Shown: piece after piece, positions 30,120-38,219 of the stretch
How positions within the stretch are numbered: the first letter of the stretch is position 1
Layout of the letters: each line of letters starts with the position of its first letter
Source of the DNA: Bacteroidota bacterium
Lineage (GTDB): Bacteria; Bacteroidota; Bacteroidia; Chitinophagales; Chitinophagaceae
NCBI GenBank assembly: GCA_016868895.1
Contig: VGFK01000002.1
Location: 248,001-312,000 of the forward strand
DNA: 64,000 nucleotides
Direction: 5' to 3'
Translations under genes and position numbers: made by a program
Notes under the pieces: generated by a model
Told to the model about the DNA's origin: nothing
Seen by the model: the letters and a program-made list of their open reading frames with translations, nothing else
Database searches by the model: none

Positions 30120-30929
30120 TCAGTTTTTTTGATACACCCGAACATAATCCACCACCATCCGCTGAGGCCAAATTGTGGTGTCGACTCCTTTTGATCCTCC
30201 CCAATTTCCCCCAACCGCAACATTTAAGATGAGATAATGTTTGTTGTTGAATGGCCAGGCCGAATACCCGCTTCCTTCATTGGTATAGGTAAAATAATAC
30301 TGATTGTCCATCCCGATTTTTAAGGTATCCTGGCTCCACTCCAGTTGGTAGGTGTGGAATTCTTCCGAACAGTTGTTGACGTTAATTTGATTGGCTTTTT
30401 GTGTACCAATGGTGTGATTGTATTTAAGCGTATGAATCGTTCCATGCACCCTGCCTTGATCATAGCCTACGTGTTCCATGATATCGATTTCACCATCCTC
30501 GGGCCATTTCAGGGGACGAGTATCGGCTAACATCCAAATGGCCGGCCAGGTCCCCAGTCCTTTGGGCAGTTTGGCCCGAACTTCAATTTTACCATGATTC
30601 CAAGAAGCCCGGTCTCTTGTTACCAGTCGAGCAGAACTGTACTCCTTACCCTCCATCGCCTCGCGAATCGCTTCAATGATCAGGTGACCATTTTCAACTC
30701 GTGCATTTTGCATCCGCTTTGCCGTATAATATTCCAGTTCGTTGTTTCCCCATCCATGTCCCCCTACGTCATAATTCCATTTTCGGTCATCAGGCAATCC
30801 TGTGTATTCGAATTCATCGTTCCAGACTAACTTCCATTGTTGGGACGACTGCTGCCCGATCGCTGTATTATTGGAAAACATCGAAGCAATAAGTACGATG
30901 AAGGCCGGATTTTCGAAAAATTTAAGCAT
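30120..30929 (-). CDS. GH16 family beta-glucanase (laminarinase-like)
   Basis: 269 aa, with a hydrophobic export signal at residues 8-25. The catalytic motif EIDIMEHVG (ExDxxE) is present near residue 145, with WNDEFEYTG and GTWPAIWMLAD upstream, and HTYQLEWSQDTL, FIL-like YLILNVAVGGNWGG downstream. Such enzymes cut beta-1,3 or beta-1,3-1,4-glucans. No SusC/SusD pair is close, so this is a single secreted glucanase rather than part of a polysaccharide utilisation locus. The start at 30929 sets the signal peptide. Confidence 0.93.
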   Translation of the reverse strand: MLKFFENPAFIVLIASMFSNNTAIGQQSSQQWKLVWNDEFEYTGLPDDRKWNYDVGGHGWGNNELEYYTAKRMQNARVENGHLIIEAIREAMEGKEYSSARLVTRDRASWNHGKIEVRAKLPKGLGTWPAIWMLADTRPLKWPEDGEIDIMEHVGYDQGRVHGTIHTLKYNHTIGTQKANQINVNNCSEEFHTYQLEWSQDTLKIGMDNQYYFTYTNEGSGYSAWPFNNKHYLILNVAVGGNWGGSKGVDTTIWPQRMVVDYVRVYQKN

Positions 30930-30971
30930 ACGCTCCTGAATTTGTCCCCAATATATAAAAAGCCATAGTTT

Positions 30972-31003
30972 TTTGGTGGGATTGTTTGGGAGGATTACTT
31001 TTG
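30972..31003 (+). promoter_or_regulatory. promoter of the his operon
   Basis: TTTG (30972-30975), 20 bases, then TACTTTTG (30996-31003) match both Bacteroidetes promoter boxes. The start of transcription would be about 31007-31010, at or next to the ATG of the leader peptide (31008), so the leader may be translated as a leaderless mRNA. Confidence 0.68.
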
Positions 31004-31007
31004 CATC

Positions 31008-31052
31008 ATGTTCATCAGTCGCCACCACCACCATTCCTTGCCGAAGAGGTAG
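31008..31052 (+). CDS. hisL: his operon leader peptide
   Basis: A 14-codon ORF reading MFISRHHHHSLPKR and ending with TAG. Four consecutive His codons (31023-31034) stand between the his promoter and a terminator-like hairpin, 70 bases before hisG. This is the classic layout of translation-coupled attenuation: a ribosome stalled at the His codons for lack of charged tRNA-His leaves the downstream region free to form the antiterminator. Confidence 0.78.
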   Translation: MFISRHHHHSLPKR

Positions 31053-31107
31053 GCCTGTGTGCGTGTAAACATAGTGTGGGCTTACCAGTGGTAAGCCCAT
31101 TTTTTTT
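31048..31107 (+). promoter_or_regulatory. his attenuator: terminator and antiterminator
   Basis: The terminator is a perfect 10-bp stem, TGGGCTTACC (31077-31086) with GGTAAGCCCA (31090-31099), loop AGT, then eight T (31100-31107). The segment GGTAGGCC (31048-31055), which overlaps the leader stop codon, can instead pair with GGCTTACC (31079-31086) over eight positions with one G-U. A ribosome at the stop would cover this segment and let the terminator form; a ribosome stalled on the His codons would not. Confidence 0.75.
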
Positions 31108-31121
31108 AACTCAATTGAACA

Positions 31122-31985
31122 ATGATGCAAGAAATACTTAAAATAGCCATTCAGAAGTCCGGTCGACTCTACGACGATTCAGTTCAACTCCTTCGCGAAT
31201 GCGGAATTGACCTTCGTAATGTAAAAGACCGGTTGCGAACGGTTTCTGAGAATTTTCCCATTGAGGTGTTTTTCTTGCGCGACGATGATATTCCAGAATA
31301 CGTGGAAGATGGGGTAGCAGATGTGGGTATCGTCGGTCAAAACGTACTACTGGAAAAAGGCCGGTCCATTCGAGAAGTAGAAGCCCTGGGTTTTGGGAAA
31401 TGCAGACTTTCCCTTGCCGTGCCGAAATCATTTGATTACCAGAATCTTCAATCTCTTCAGGGAAAAAGAATTGCAACCAGCTATCCCAAAATCCTGGGAA
31501 CATACCTGAAAAAAAACGCCATTGAAGCGTCTATCCATGAAATCAGTGGATCCGTCGAGATTGCACCCGGAATAGGACTAGCCGATGCTGCTGCCGATTT
31601 GGTCAGCAGCGGCGGGACACTCTTCATGAATGGATTGAAAGAAGTAGAAGTCATCCTTGATTCACAGGCAGTACTGGTAGCCGGAAACACCATTGGAAAC
31701 GAAAAACAGGACATTCTAAACAAATTACTGTTTCGCATTCGCTCCGTTCGGAAAGCAAAAAAGTCCAAATACGTGTTGATGAATGTTCCCAACGGACAAC
31801 TTCAGGATGTTTTACAATTACTGCCTGGGATGAGAAGTCCGACCGTCCTGCCTCTCGCTGAAACCGGCTGGAGCAGCGTTCACAGTGTATTGGATGAAGA
31901 TGAATTCTGGATTCGCATTGAACAGCTGAAAGCTGCGGGCGCGGAAGGAATCTTGGTTGTTCCCATTGAAAAACTCATACTCTAA
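31122..31985 (+). CDS. hisG: ATP phosphoribosyltransferase, long form
   Basis: 287 aa. It starts histidine synthesis by joining ATP and PRPP. The two catalytic lobes include LKIAIQKSGRLYDDSVQLL, DVGIVGQNVLLE and the PRPP-binding loop SGSVEIAPGIGLADAAADLVSSGGTL. Residues after about 210 form the ACT-like regulatory domain (KYVLMNVPNGQLQDVLQLLPGM), so this is the hexameric form that is feedback-inhibited by histidine and needs no HisZ. It is the first gene of hisGDCB. Confidence 0.97.
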   Translation: MMQEILKIAIQKSGRLYDDSVQLLRECGIDLRNVKDRLRTVSENFPIEVFFLRDDDIPEYVEDGVADVGIVGQNVLLEKGRSIREVEALGFGKCRLSLAVPKSFDYQNLQSLQGKRIATSYPKILGTYLKKNAIEASIHEISGSVEIAPGIGLADAAADLVSSGGTLFMNGLKEVEVILDSQAVLVAGNTIGNEKQDILNKLLFRIRSVRKAKKSKYVLMNVPNGQLQDVLQLLPGMRSPTVLPLAETGWSSVHSVLDEDEFWIRIEQLKAAGAEGILVVPIEKLIL

Positions 31986-31991
31986 TTCGTC

Positions 31992-33272
31992 ATGAACATC
32001 TTTGAATTTCCTGAAAAATCGCAATGGGAGTCCTTGACTGCTCGACCTGTATTGGATGACCGAAAGTTGCTCAACGATGTTGATAAACTTGTCAAAGGGG
32101 TCAAAAACAAAGGCGATCGATGGGTCAAAAAACTTTCTAAACAATTTGATGGGTACGCACCCCGCCAGCTTCGCGTCTCGGAACAGGTAATCCGAAGTGC
32201 TGCAAAAAAAGTATCCCCGGATCTCAAAGCCGCCATCGACCTTGCATACAACACTATTCATCACTTTCACTCGGAACAAGTTGATTCAAAAAAAGTCATT
32301 GAAACCGTTCCTGGTTTGTGCTGCTGGCGACGAAGCACACCCATTGATCGGGTAGGCTTGTATATTCCCGGCGGAACCGCTCCACTATTTTCAACTGTAT
32401 TGATGTTGGGAATTCCTGCAGTTATCGCAGGATGTTCCGAAGTAGTGATCTGTACCCCCACCGGAAAAGACGGGAGCATTCATCCTGCTGTTCTTTATTG
32501 TGCACTCAAGGTTGGTATCAAGGAAGTGTATGCATGTGGTGGAGCACAGGCCATTGCTGCGATGGCTTACGGAACAGATTCGATAAAAAAAGCAGATAAG
32601 ATTTTTGGTCCGGGTAACCAGTATGTGACTGCGGCAAAGCGATTGGTTCAACTCGATGGGGTAGCAATTGATATGCCTGCCGGACCAAGTGAGGTGTGTG
32701 TTGTAGCCGACAACAGCGCTTCTCCTCAATTTGTGGCAGCTGATTTGCTTTCGCAGGCAGAACATGGTCCCGATTCACAAGTACTGCTGATAACCGACAG
32801 CCGGTTGTTGCTTACTCAAACCCTGACTGAAATTGATCGGCAATTGGCTCATCTTCCCCGAAAAGACATCGCTCTTCAGGCGATTCAAAACAGTCGCGCA
32901 ATTTTAGTAGAAAATATGACTGTGGCGATTGAGCTATCCAATTCCTATGCTCCTGAGCATTTGATTATTGCATCAGAGGATGCTGTTTCGTTGGAACCGC
33001 TGGTTAACAATGCCGGTTCGGTATTCCTGGGAAACTATGCGCCGGAAAGTGCCGGTGATTATGCCAGTGGAACCAATCACACCTTGCCCACCAACGGAAA
33101 TGCGCGGGCCATGGCAGGTGTCAGCGTAGACAGTTTTGTTAAGAAAATGACCGTACAATCGATCACGCGCCAGGGTTTAGAGCAAATTGGTGCGGCTGTA
33201 ATGAGCATGGCCCGCGCGGAAGGATTGGAAGGTCATGCACAGGCTATAGAAGTGAGACTTAAAAACCAATAA
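31992..33272 (+). CDS. hisD: histidinol dehydrogenase
   Basis: 426 aa. It carries out the last two oxidations to histidine with NAD. Marks are RVGLYIPGGTAPLFSTVLM, AYGTDSIKKADKIFGPGNQYVTAAKR, IDMPAGPSEVCVVAD, and the zinc ligands in LLSQAEHGPDSQ and EGLEGHAQA. It follows hisG by six bases, and hisC begins directly after its stop codon. Confidence 0.97.
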   Translation: MNIFEFPEKSQWESLTARPVLDDRKLLNDVDKLVKGVKNKGDRWVKKLSKQFDGYAPRQLRVSEQVIRSAAKKVSPDLKAAIDLAYNTIHHFHSEQVDSKKVIETVPGLCCWRRSTPIDRVGLYIPGGTAPLFSTVLMLGIPAVIAGCSEVVICTPTGKDGSIHPAVLYCALKVGIKEVYACGGAQAIAAMAYGTDSIKKADKIFGPGNQYVTAAKRLVQLDGVAIDMPAGPSEVCVVADNSASPQFVAADLLSQAEHGPDSQVLLITDSRLLLTQTLTEIDRQLAHLPRKDIALQAIQNSRAILVENMTVAIELSNSYAPEHLIIASEDAVSLEPLVNNAGSVFLGNYAPESAGDYASGTNHTLPTNGNARAMAGVSVDSFVKKMTVQSITRQGLEQIGAAVMSMARAEGLEGHAQAIEVRLKNQ

Positions 33273-34325
33273 ATGTTCAACCTCGAAAACCTTGTCCGAC
33301 CGAATATCAAAAGCCTGGTGCCGTATTCCACTGCGCGGGATGAGTTCAAAGGATCGGCGCGCATCTTCATGGATGCAAACGAAAATGCATTGGGTTCTCC
33401 CTCCACTCAATGGTACAACCGGTATCCGGATCCGCATCATACAAGAATCAAGCAGAAGATCAGCGCCATCAAAAACGTTCCTGCATCCAACATTTTTATC
33501 GGAAACGGCAGCGATGAAGTAATTGATCTTTTATACCGCGTGTTTTGTGAACCCGGTAAAGATGAGGTGGTAATTTTTCCTCCGACCTATGGCATGTATG
33601 AAGTTTCTGCACGCGTGAACGATGTACACGTGATAAAGGTTCCCTTGATGGCTGACTTCCAGCTTGATCTTCGAAGGTTGGAGCAGGCAATAACACGGAT
33701 AACCAAAATGATGTGGATTTGTTCACCCAATAATCCAACTGGAAATACAATTGATCGGGTTGACATCGAAATGCTGCTCAATAATTTTGATGGAATAGTG
33801 GTGATGGATGAAGCATACATCAATTTTTCACGCCAGCGATCTTTTCTTAGTGAATTGTCTGAATATCCCAACCTGGTCATCATGCAAACACTCAGTAAAG
33901 CATGGGGCTTGGCGGGCATTCGCCTGGGCATGGCTTTTGCCTCTCAACCGATCATCGAATACCTGAATAAAACAAAGCCCCCCTACAATATCAGTCAGCC
34001 TGTTCAGGATATTGCACTAAAAGCCTTGGAAGAAGTTGGTCAGGTCAATGAAATGATCGTTGAGCTGGTGAAGTACCGAATGGAGCTGGAACAATCCCTA
34101 CTGGCTTTATCCTGTGTGGAGCATGTGTATCCTTCGGATGCCAATTTCCTTCTGGTGAAATGCAGGCAAGCCCATCAATTGTATGTGCATTTGGTTGATA
34201 ACGGAATTGTAGTGAGAGACAGAAGTAAAGTGATATTGTGCAACGACTGTCTCCGTATTACCGTTGGTACCCAAAACGAAAATCAAGCACTTATTTCCGC
34301 CATGAACACTTTTCAATCTCAGTAG
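33273..34325 (+). CDS. hisC: histidinol-phosphate aminotransferase
   Basis: 350 aa, PLP-dependent class II aminotransferase. It converts imidazole acetol phosphate to histidinol phosphate. Marks are FMDANENALGSP, IFIGNGSDEVIDLLYRVF, FPPTYGMYEV, WICSPNNPTGN, VVMDEAYINF and TLSKAWGLAGIRLGMAF with the PLP Lys. It is located between hisD and hisB with no real gap. Confidence 0.96.
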   Translation: MFNLENLVRPNIKSLVPYSTARDEFKGSARIFMDANENALGSPSTQWYNRYPDPHHTRIKQKISAIKNVPASNIFIGNGSDEVIDLLYRVFCEPGKDEVVIFPPTYGMYEVSARVNDVHVIKVPLMADFQLDLRRLEQAITRITKMMWICSPNNPTGNTIDRVDIEMLLNNFDGIVVMDEAYINFSRQRSFLSELSEYPNLVIMQTLSKAWGLAGIRLGMAFASQPIIEYLNKTKPPYNISQPVQDIALKALEEVGQVNEMIVELVKYRMELEQSLLALSCVEHVYPSDANFLLVKCRQAHQLYVHLVDNGIVVRDRSKVILCNDCLRITVGTQNENQALISAMNTFQSQ

Positions 34326-34326
34326 C

Positions 34327-35466
34327 ATGAAGAAAGTATTATTCATTGATCGGGATGGTACGCTCATTCAAGAGGCGCCTCCTACGTTTCAAATAGACCG
34401 ACTGGAAAAGCTTCGTTTTTATCCCGGTGCAATTCAAGGGATGGCAAGGATTTCCAGAGAATTCGATTTTGAGCTTGTAATGGTATCCAACCAGGATGGC
34501 TTGGGAACGCCGTCGTTCCCTACTCATGATTTTCAACCCATTCACGATCATATCCTTCAAACATTTGAAGGAGAAGGTGTCCGTTTCGATGAAGTACTCA
34601 TCGATCCGAGCTTACCAGCTGAGCGGTCGCCCAACCGAAAGCCGGGCATTGGTATGCTGAAGAAATACCTGGATGCATCTATGTATGATATAGCTGGATC
34701 GTATGTGATCGGCGATCGCCACACGGATATACAGCTGGCAGCAAATCTTGGCTGCTCATGCATTGTGGTGAACAATTCTCAAGGGGTAGGCGTCATTGCA
34801 ATCGATCAGCTGGAGAAGCAACTGCAGGATGCAGTGGTTTTGGTTACCACCTCCTGGGAAGATATACACCTCTTTTTAAAGAACGGACTGCGAAAAGTCG
34901 ACCACCAACGAACCACCAACGAAACAGAAGTGTCGATTCAGTTGAATGTGGACGGGGAAGGGAAGTCGCAGATCTCCACCGGCTTGAACTTTTTGGATCA
35001 CATGCTGGATCAGCTGGCGCGGCATGGCAAAATTGATATATCCATCGCGGTCAAAGGCGATTTGCACGTGGATGAACACCATACCATCGAAGACACAGGC
35101 ATCGCCCTAGGGGAAGCATTTGCAAAAGGGTTGACGGATAAGCGGGGAATGGAACGGTACGGGTTCGCACTTCCCATGGATGATGCTGCTGCTCAGGTAC
35201 TGATCGACTTTGGAGGACGAAACTGGATTGTGTGGGATGCTGAATTCAAGCGGGAGAAAATAGGAGACGTGCCCACCGAAATGTTTTTTCATTTTTTTAA
35301 ATCTTTTTCGGATGCTGCTAAATGCAACCTGAATATTTCCAGCACAGGCGATAACGAGCACCACAAAATTGAATCCATATTTAAGGCCTTTGCCAAAGCC
35401 ATTCGCATGGCTATTCGAAAAGACCCTTGGTCGGATGCGCTCCCCACCACAAAAGGAGTGTTGTAA
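34327..35466 (+). CDS. hisB: bifunctional histidinol phosphatase / imidazoleglycerol-phosphate dehydratase
   Basis: 379 aa. Residues 1-165 are a HAD phosphatase (LFIDRDGTLIQEAPP with DxDxT, VMVSNQDGLGT, YVIGDRHTDIQLAANLG). Residues from about 185 are the dehydratase with DEHHTIEDTGIALGEAF and DNEHHKIESIFKAFAKA, whose His/Glu bind Mn. The fusion is known from enterobacteria and many Bacteroidetes. It ends the his block here; hisH, A, F and I are not in the window. Confidence 0.97.
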   Translation: MKKVLFIDRDGTLIQEAPPTFQIDRLEKLRFYPGAIQGMARISREFDFELVMVSNQDGLGTPSFPTHDFQPIHDHILQTFEGEGVRFDEVLIDPSLPAERSPNRKPGIGMLKKYLDASMYDIAGSYVIGDRHTDIQLAANLGCSCIVVNNSQGVGVIAIDQLEKQLQDAVVLVTTSWEDIHLFLKNGLRKVDHQRTTNETEVSIQLNVDGEGKSQISTGLNFLDHMLDQLARHGKIDISIAVKGDLHVDEHHTIEDTGIALGEAFAKGLTDKRGMERYGFALPMDDAAAQVLIDFGGRNWIVWDAEFKREKIGDVPTEMFFHFFKSFSDAAKCNLNISSTGDNEHHKIESIFKAFAKAIRMAIRKDPWSDALPTTKGVL

Positions 35467-37762: not shown

Positions 37763-37849
37763 GCCCAGATGGCGGAACTGGTAGACGCGTCAGACTCAAA
37801 ATCTGGTATCAGCAATGATGTGCAGGTTCGATTCCTGTTCTGGGCACCA
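37763..37849 (+). tRNA. tRNA-Leu (CAA)
   Basis: An 87-base class II tRNA with a long variable arm and encoded CCA. The acceptor stem pairs GCCCAGA with TCTGGGC, the anticodon loop is CTCAAAA with anticodon CAA at 37797-37799, and the T arm carries GGTTCGATTCC. It reads UUG codons. tmRNA begins one base after its CCA. Confidence 0.95.
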
Positions 37850-37850
37850 C

Positions 37851-38219
37851 GGGGCTGACCGGTATTGACAGCGTAGATCTTTGAAAGTAAGCATGCAGTG
37901 CGTTGCGAATGTTGCACTTTAATCTGAATTCGAAACCAATAAATGGCGAGAATACTTACGCCATGGCTGCCTAATCAGTGATTAGCGCACCCATTATGGC
38001 CGGCTGACGGGTTTTCCCTTACCCAGTCACCCTGCTGAATCAAAAAAAACAGGGATGCTGCATCCGAAGGCTGTGACGGATGCTTAAGCCTATTCAGCTA
38101 CGGATGCGGTTGGTTCGTTTGGTTCCTGCCGTTTCCCGACAATCAATTCCAGAATAAGCATGTAGAAAGCTTTTGACGAATATGTTTGGACGTGGGTTCG
38201 AATCCCACCAGCTCCACCA
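37851..38219 (+). ncRNA. ssrA: transfer-messenger RNA (ssrA)
   Basis: The 5' end GGGGCTGACCGGTATTGACAG and the 3' end GTGGGTTCGAATCCCACCAGCTCCACCA form the tRNA-like part, with 5' GGGGCTG pairing to 3' CAGCTCC. The tag frame reads GENTYAMAA and ends with TAA (37945-37974); with the alanine carried by tmRNA the tag is AGENTYAMAA. The ending resembles the Bacteroidetes tags that end in YALAA. It rescues stalled ribosomes and marks the peptide for proteolysis. It is co-located with tRNA-Leu behind the same promoter. Confidence 0.96.

Follow-up and report, generated by a model that had tools for sequence, protein, structure and literature searches.

A probable histidine-sensing transcription attenuator ahead of hisGDCB in a member of the Chitinophagaceae, with similar leaders in other Bacteroidota

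Introduction

How might a member of the Bacteroidota adjust transcription of its histidine biosynthesis genes to the supply of histidine? The question is raised by a 64,000-nucleotide stretch of DNA (the window; contig VGFK01000002.1 of assembly GCA_016868895.1) from a bacterium of the family Chitinophagaceae, whose source genome is 1.75 Mb in size and 95.8% complete. Four his genes follow one another here on the forward strand: hisG (31122–31985; TIGR00070, 198.6 bits, cut-off 75.75), hisD (31992–33272; TIGR00069, 522.5 bits, cut-off 243.8), hisC (33273–34325; TIGR01141, 362.1 bits, cut-off 276.55) and a bifunctional hisB (34327–35466; NF003937, 512.9 bits, cut-off 443), all above the curated cut-offs. 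An earlier note, made from the letters of this DNA, proposed that positions 30972–31107 form a histidine attenuator for these genes. The his attenuator of enterobacteria combines a leader ORF containing seven His codons, the alternative helices 1:2, 2:3 and 3:4, and a terminator before hisG.

According to the text of a 2010 survey, leader-peptide systems were known only in Proteobacteria and Actinobacteria, apart from ermC and the survey's own finding in bacilli, where a His leader peptide precedes two hisS-type genes (PMC2965389). Within the Bacteroidota, attenuation by leader peptides has been proposed for amino-acid operons in Flavobacterium psychrophilum (PMC9723704), so the mechanism class is not new to the phylum; the passage of the main text that makes the suggestion presents no his leader or structure. 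The same suggestion comes from Bacteroides thetaiotaomicron, where short ORFs in long 5′ UTRs were called reminiscent of leader peptides, with hisG unmentioned in the main text (PMC7366714). We found no further account of Bacteroidota his leaders in the open-licence literature, supplements aside; the survey of Lopatovskaya et al. (2010) may contain more.

Results

The putative leader ORF (MFISRHHHHSLPKR; 31008–31052, forward strand, as are all elements described here) has 14 codons and a TAG stop, reading ATG TTC ATC AGT CGC CAC CAC CAC CAT TCC TTG CCG AAG AGG TAG. Its four consecutive His codons (31023–31034) are the candidate control codons. Upstream lies TTTG (30972–30975), which agrees with the −33 consensus of Bacteroidota promoters. 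Twenty nucleotides separate it from TACTTTTG (30996–31003), a match to the −7 element TAnnTTTG, the box named in PMC9723704; 4 nt then lead to the ATG at 31008. Between the leader and hisG stands an apparent intrinsic terminator, a stem of 11 pairs, closing G-T counted (31076–31100), with a run of eight T (31100–31107). In all of this (promoter, 14-codon ORF with four His codons, eight T) the earlier reading was correct to the base. Of 5000 dinucleotide shuffles of the 450 nt upstream, 3 contained an ORF with HHHH, and 507 of 5000 satisfied the looser criterion used for relatives, at least three His in six codons. Conservation, described below, is the stronger argument for the leader.

Four segments can pair in alternative ways. 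Strand 2 (GGTAGGCC, 31048–31055) holds the leader stop codon (31050–31052) and forms eight pairs, one of them G-U, with strand 3 (GGCTTACC, 31079–31086), exactly the helix that had been claimed. Strand 3 also belongs to the terminator, where its partner is the 3′ arm, strand 4 (GGTAAGCCC, 31090–31098). It had been supposed that these two mutually exclusive helices suffice, in a design simpler than the enterobacterial set. We reject a two-helix-only design: strand 1 (CTTGCC, 31037–31042) pairs with GGTAGG (31048–31053) of strand 2, and this third helix is conserved in relatives. Judged from these pairings, the layout is the classical 1:2 / 2:3 / 3:4 design. The fold has a z-score of −2.61, and an equal or better one was reached by 5 of 200 shuffles.

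Searches of the leader-terminator stretch against Rfam 15 gave no match, neither to His_leader nor to any other family, at the gathering threshold; with E up to 5, the only hit was a sub-threshold rli30 at 30917–30982. A T-box riboswitch or other Rfam element was rejected on this basis.

Within the family, hisG was matched in 143 of 195 genomes, and 139 upstream regions were read. A His-rich leader ORF (at least three His in six codons) precedes hisG in 130 of the 139, often with a His run of the form H-x-H-H-H-H; mononucleotide shuffles of the first 130 regions gave such an ORF in 72 of 2600 cases. All but two of the 130 leaders are followed by a terminator (128/130, by the search used), and 122 of the 128 contain a segment that pairs well with the terminator arm. 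This antiterminator arm begins 13 nt (53 leaders) or 14 nt (24 leaders) past the last His codon in 77 of the 122. Strand 2 reads GGTARGCC or close to it, mostly with the leader stop codon inside, and strand 3 reads GGCTTACC. Nine of the 139 regions have no leader ORF, two of which (L017 and L031) are cut by contig ends. Three loci, L004, L016 and L021, show no leader in the stretch fetched upstream of hisG; because the gene directly preceding hisG there is one that, by eye, we take to resemble GxxExxY-type proteins, a leader may lie farther out.

Removal of duplicates and of stretches longer than 130 nt left 118 of the 122 rows, of which 115 were aligned (alignment A2). Loci L127, L224 and L225, with another terminator type, were excluded from this alignment and from the counts of helix 1:2 and of the switch. 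Helix 3:4 is paired in 99.3% of cells, 6 of its 9 pairs have changed on both sides, and its covariation score was reached by 0 of 500 shuffles, which ignore kinship. Of the cells of helix 2:3, 96.7% are paired (shuffles, 95.7%), and its covariation score was likewise reached by 0 of 500 shuffles, kinship again ignored. Double changes occur in only 3 of its 8 pairs, a number that 62 of 500 shuffles attain, because strands 2 and 3 hardly vary among family members. When arms were exchanged between these members, the pairing score went down only from 17.5 to 16.9, and the exchange did not discriminate. Helix 1:2 was counted by script, since differences in loop length displace the strand 1 columns of a MAFFT alignment: at least five pairs can form in 107 of 119 leaders, compared with 32% of spacer shuffles, and at least six in 98 of 119, compared with 13%. 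Comparison of sequences thus establishes the elements, their conservation, their spacing and their potential to pair. Conserved His codons and pairing in relatives, the check that the earlier note had named, are borne out by the 130 of 139 leaders and by helices that covary.

Two side observations concern this alignment. The excluded L127, L224 and L225 carry a leader and terminator of the type seen in families f4 and f5 in place of GGCTTACC, and transfer is possible. Several of five folded members have an extra hairpin between strands 2 and 3 (e.g. GTGTTTT with AAAACAT).

It could be argued that the ORF is incidental, that the hairpin terminates the upstream gene or an antisense transcript, and that the hisG promoter lies downstream. 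Two overlapping sigma-70-type matches do occur at 31115–31144, where 0.9 would be expected in the 501 bases scanned, and the stem reads as terminator-like on the other strand too. The gene upstream of the leader is on the opposite strand, divergent from hisG, so the terminator is not its own, and a terminator of a neighbouring gene was rejected on this ground; moreover, relatives keep leader, promoter box and helices in the same register. We give this explanation hardly any credence. It is also conceivable that the small peptide has a function of its own such as metal binding, of which His-rich peptides are capable. Its N-terminal residues vary, and those past the His run track strands 1 and 2 of the RNA, which makes such a function extremely improbable. 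Counting against the attenuator, the His codons themselves may be partly maintained by RNA pairing. A histidine-sensing attenuator is strongly supported by the sequence comparison, with its conserved His codons, terminator, antiterminator and spacing.

A model built from the family alignment (R1), run with E up to 1 and strict filters, has a single match in the window's genome, namely the leader described here. Across the 41 genomes of the genus, where a scan for hisG succeeded in 34, every R1 match with E below 1e-3 precedes a hisG match except G523 C47, where no hisG was found. A weak match (E 0.019) lies directly upstream of trpE in G487. Scanning 12 ilvB upstream regions of genus genomes revealed no clear leader.

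The earlier note also predicted that the transcript starts at the leader ATG, so that the leader may lack a 5′ UTR. The spacing from TAnnTTTG to the start codon is exactly 4 nt in 24 of 30 genus loci, the window included, and the 4 nt themselves vary. Transcription begins 3–4 nt after the box; if so here, the leader would be leaderless or nearly so, and the fixed spacing favours near-leaderless translation in the genus. In the family as a whole, 118 of 130 leaders have the box no more than 45 nt from the start (mean expectation from shuffled 55-nt upstreams, 4.85 of 130), at distances that cluster at 4–5, 7–10 and 16–18 nt. Because these clusters differ and the box is absent there from 12 of 130 leaders, leaderlessness does not appear to be general in the family. 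Leaderless mRNAs made up 5.5% of those examined in F. psychrophilum, and the same main text describes initiation in Bacteroidota as not reliant on Shine-Dalgarno sequences and the promoter as unusual (PMC9723704).

We modelled the switch by computing how probable helix 2:3 is in RNA truncated ahead of strand 4. The ribosome's front edge was set 10 nt past the A-site codon, the value for E. coli. With the last His codon in the A site, the mean modelled probability is 0.98; one, two and three codons farther on, it is 0.92, 0.52 and 0.10; and with the stop codon there it is 0.00. At the same five positions, the window gives 0.82, 0.82, 0.26, 0.00 and 0.00. Front edges of 8 and 12 nt move the curve by about one codon. 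In the model, then, the switch occurs no more than three codons past the last His. For ribosome-free RNA truncated ahead of strand 4, the mean 2:3 probability is 0.39 (window, 0.05), and by this calculation the 1:2 block of the antiterminator in the absence of a ribosome is incomplete at equilibrium in some relatives. For full-length RNA, the terminator is favoured in every modelled state (mean 0.83–0.99; window 1.00), which implies that the antitermination decision would have to be kinetic.

Looking beyond the family, we found hisG in 252 of 296 genomes of the phylum. Among 92 upstream regions read outside the family, 12 lack a His-rich ORF and 13 have the ORF and no terminator. In family f5, ORF and terminator are present in 24 of 24 loci, and the arm starts 14 nt past the last His codon in 17 of 23. 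Similar leaders recur in f2, f4, f8, f11, f34 and f36. Some single His-rich ORFs in distant families may be due to chance, and our conclusions on such families rest on those with repeated peptide and structure. The best 80 named HisG relatives include Gynurincola, Longitalea, Niastella and Chitinophaga; by the same criteria, 70 of these 80 loci have ORF and terminator, among them Chitinophaga, Niastella, Sediminibacterium, Flavobacterium, Zobellia and Kaistella. Many Cytophagales rows and Kaistella, among the 80, show no convincing antiterminator. Taken as sequence, similar his leaders appear to recur in relatives across the Bacteroidota, a phylum with few descriptions of such control.

The pair formed by strands 2 and 3 differs from family to family: GGTARGCC with GGCTTACC in f1, TCAAGCG with CGTTTGA in f5, TAGACGG with CCGTCTG in f4 and, at one f2 locus, CAGGTAG with CTACCTG. 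The 2:3 pair changes as a unit between families. Swapping arms between families lowers the pairing score in f1, f2, f4, f5, f8, f11 and f36; the mean drops from 14.9 to 10.5 in f5, from 14.8 to 10.0 in f4 and from 17.7 to 14.1 in f1, where swapped arms still score at least 14 in 48% of cases. In f34 and f16, pairing is hardly above that of swapped arms (12.6 vs 11.6 and 11.4 vs 11.1).

A His-rich ORF with no intrinsic terminator, by the search used, was seen in f23 (L214, L215, L230 and L233–L235) and in f3 (L198, L201 and L202). Loci such as these would suit an alternative in which the His-rich leader exerts its control on translation, or by way of Rho, in place of intrinsic termination. In the window's family, the stem and T run follow 128 of 130 leaders and strand 4 covaries with strand 3; for the window we regard this alternative as very unlikely and retain intrinsic termination. 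The his leaders of Algoriphagus/Pontibacter type (L138, L140, L141, L271, L273, L275, L280, L286 and L303) end in HHFHHSS, and several have a hairpin of type TTCCTCTTGAGAGGAA at the stop. No convincing terminator plus antiterminator was found in this group, and another mechanism is possible there.

The remaining his genes of the window's genome lie elsewhere. trpA, hisH, hisA, hisF and hisIE stand in a row (L397, 118–3606) some 105 kb away from hisG, and no overlap or gap between neighbours exceeds 22 bases. Gene order was read from trpA onward, and one trp-his operon running from trpE to hisIE is likely. In two species, the his operon has been reported to contain trp genes, without expression data (PMC8305728). 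The order of genes across 122 genomes, a subset of the whole list, is hisG-trp-hisF in a row in 36, trp-hisF in 30, hisG-hisF with trp elsewhere in 30, and unresolved in 26.

The trpE leader of the window's genome (L317) reads MLSNITNGYWHHVPTVLG, with Trp codons followed by His codons, and Trp then His is found in all 12 full-length genus trpE upstream regions examined (the G484 fragment was left out). For a wider comparison, we took the 30 best family matches to trpE, 20 loci chosen as separate before their leaders were seen, and the 12 genus loci, omitting L409, L414 and L426, which lack leader plus terminator, and genomes whose trp-his arrangement is unresolved. Under a neutral scoring that gives no bonus for His and requires two consecutive Trp, 19 of 19 joined loci (hisF downstream of trpE) have His directly after the run's last Trp, compared with 13 of 24 separate ones (Fisher p 8e-4, kinship ignored). 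A first scoring, which favoured Trp-His, had given 25 of 25 joined and 13 of 24 separate (kinship likewise ignored). Counted by hand by genus, the joined class has 13 of 13, and the separate class 9 that have His and 9 that lack it (one genus occurring in both; p ~0.004, kinship ignored). Modelled for the trpE leader of the window's genome, the switch comes after the last His codon (W 0.96, H 0.94, H 0.93, V 0.91, P 0.17).

In the separate class, half of the leaders still have the His codon, which counts against dual sensing. In leaders with at least two Trp, the arm mostly begins 11–16 nt past the last Trp, a spacing that fits Trp as the ruler's zero, again against dual sensing; outside the genus, it is spaced from Trp rather than from His. 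The His codon in trp leaders may also be held by RNA pairing. We therefore offer only tentatively, and with less than even confidence, a scheme in which two linked attenuators run histidine synthesis: the near-leaderless His leader for hisGDCB, and a Trp-His leader through which shortage of either amino acid would induce a joint trp-his operon carrying hisH-hisA-hisF-hisIE behind trpA.

Discussion

We conclude that positions 30972–31107 are very probably a ribosome-mediated transcription attenuator for hisGDCB, of the classical kind. The features that define leader-peptide attenuators can be recognized in the sequence and the model: a short ORF with clustered codons for the operon's own amino acid; a predicted intrinsic terminator between leader and first gene; an antiterminator that uses the 5′ arm of the terminator and would be masked by a ribosome at the stop codon and free with a ribosome at the control codons; and a 1:2 helix able to block the antiterminator without a ribosome (107/119).

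From these features we infer a transcription start, translation, stalling, ribosome-polymerase coupling and a response to histidine. The transcript would begin at or beside the leader ATG and be translated at once. With ample charged His-tRNA, the ribosome would pass the four His codons and reach the stop codon inside strand 2; covering strand 2 there, it would let the 3:4 terminator form and transcription would end before hisG. When His-tRNA is scarce, the ribosome would stall on a His codon, masking strand 1 with its front edge short of strand 2. Strand 2 could then capture newly made strand 3, no terminator would form, and hisGDCB would be transcribed. Without translation, 1:2 and 3:4 would form and transcription would stop.

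Like the enterobacterial his attenuator, the window's element has a run of His codons, three alternative helices and a terminator ahead of hisG. It differs in having four His codons where the enterobacterial leader has seven, a Bacteroidota promoter, no match in Rfam 15 at the cut-offs applied and, in the window's genus, a start codon beside the predicted 5′ end. In this last respect it resembles the trpLE(G) attenuator of Sinorhizobium meliloti, in which the RNA begins with the ATG of a leader peptide that also has 14 residues; that system senses tryptophan and belongs to the Alphaproteobacteria (PMC7298713). The leader of bacilli is, as here, a His-codon leader outside the Proteobacteria, and precedes other genes (PMC2965389).

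A his leader recurring in many Bacteroidota would imply close cooperation between RNA polymerase and ribosome in that phylum, and offers a natural reporter for testing their coupling. The distance between the last His codon and the antiterminator arm varies little and may serve as a natural ruler for the ribosome's front edge, and the apparently near-leaderless start in the window's genus would allow tests of initiation without a 5′ UTR. If the tentative Trp-His scheme is true, one switch would read two amino acids for a fused trp-his operon. Finally, farther along the window, a tRNA gene adjoins a tmRNA gene (37763–38219).
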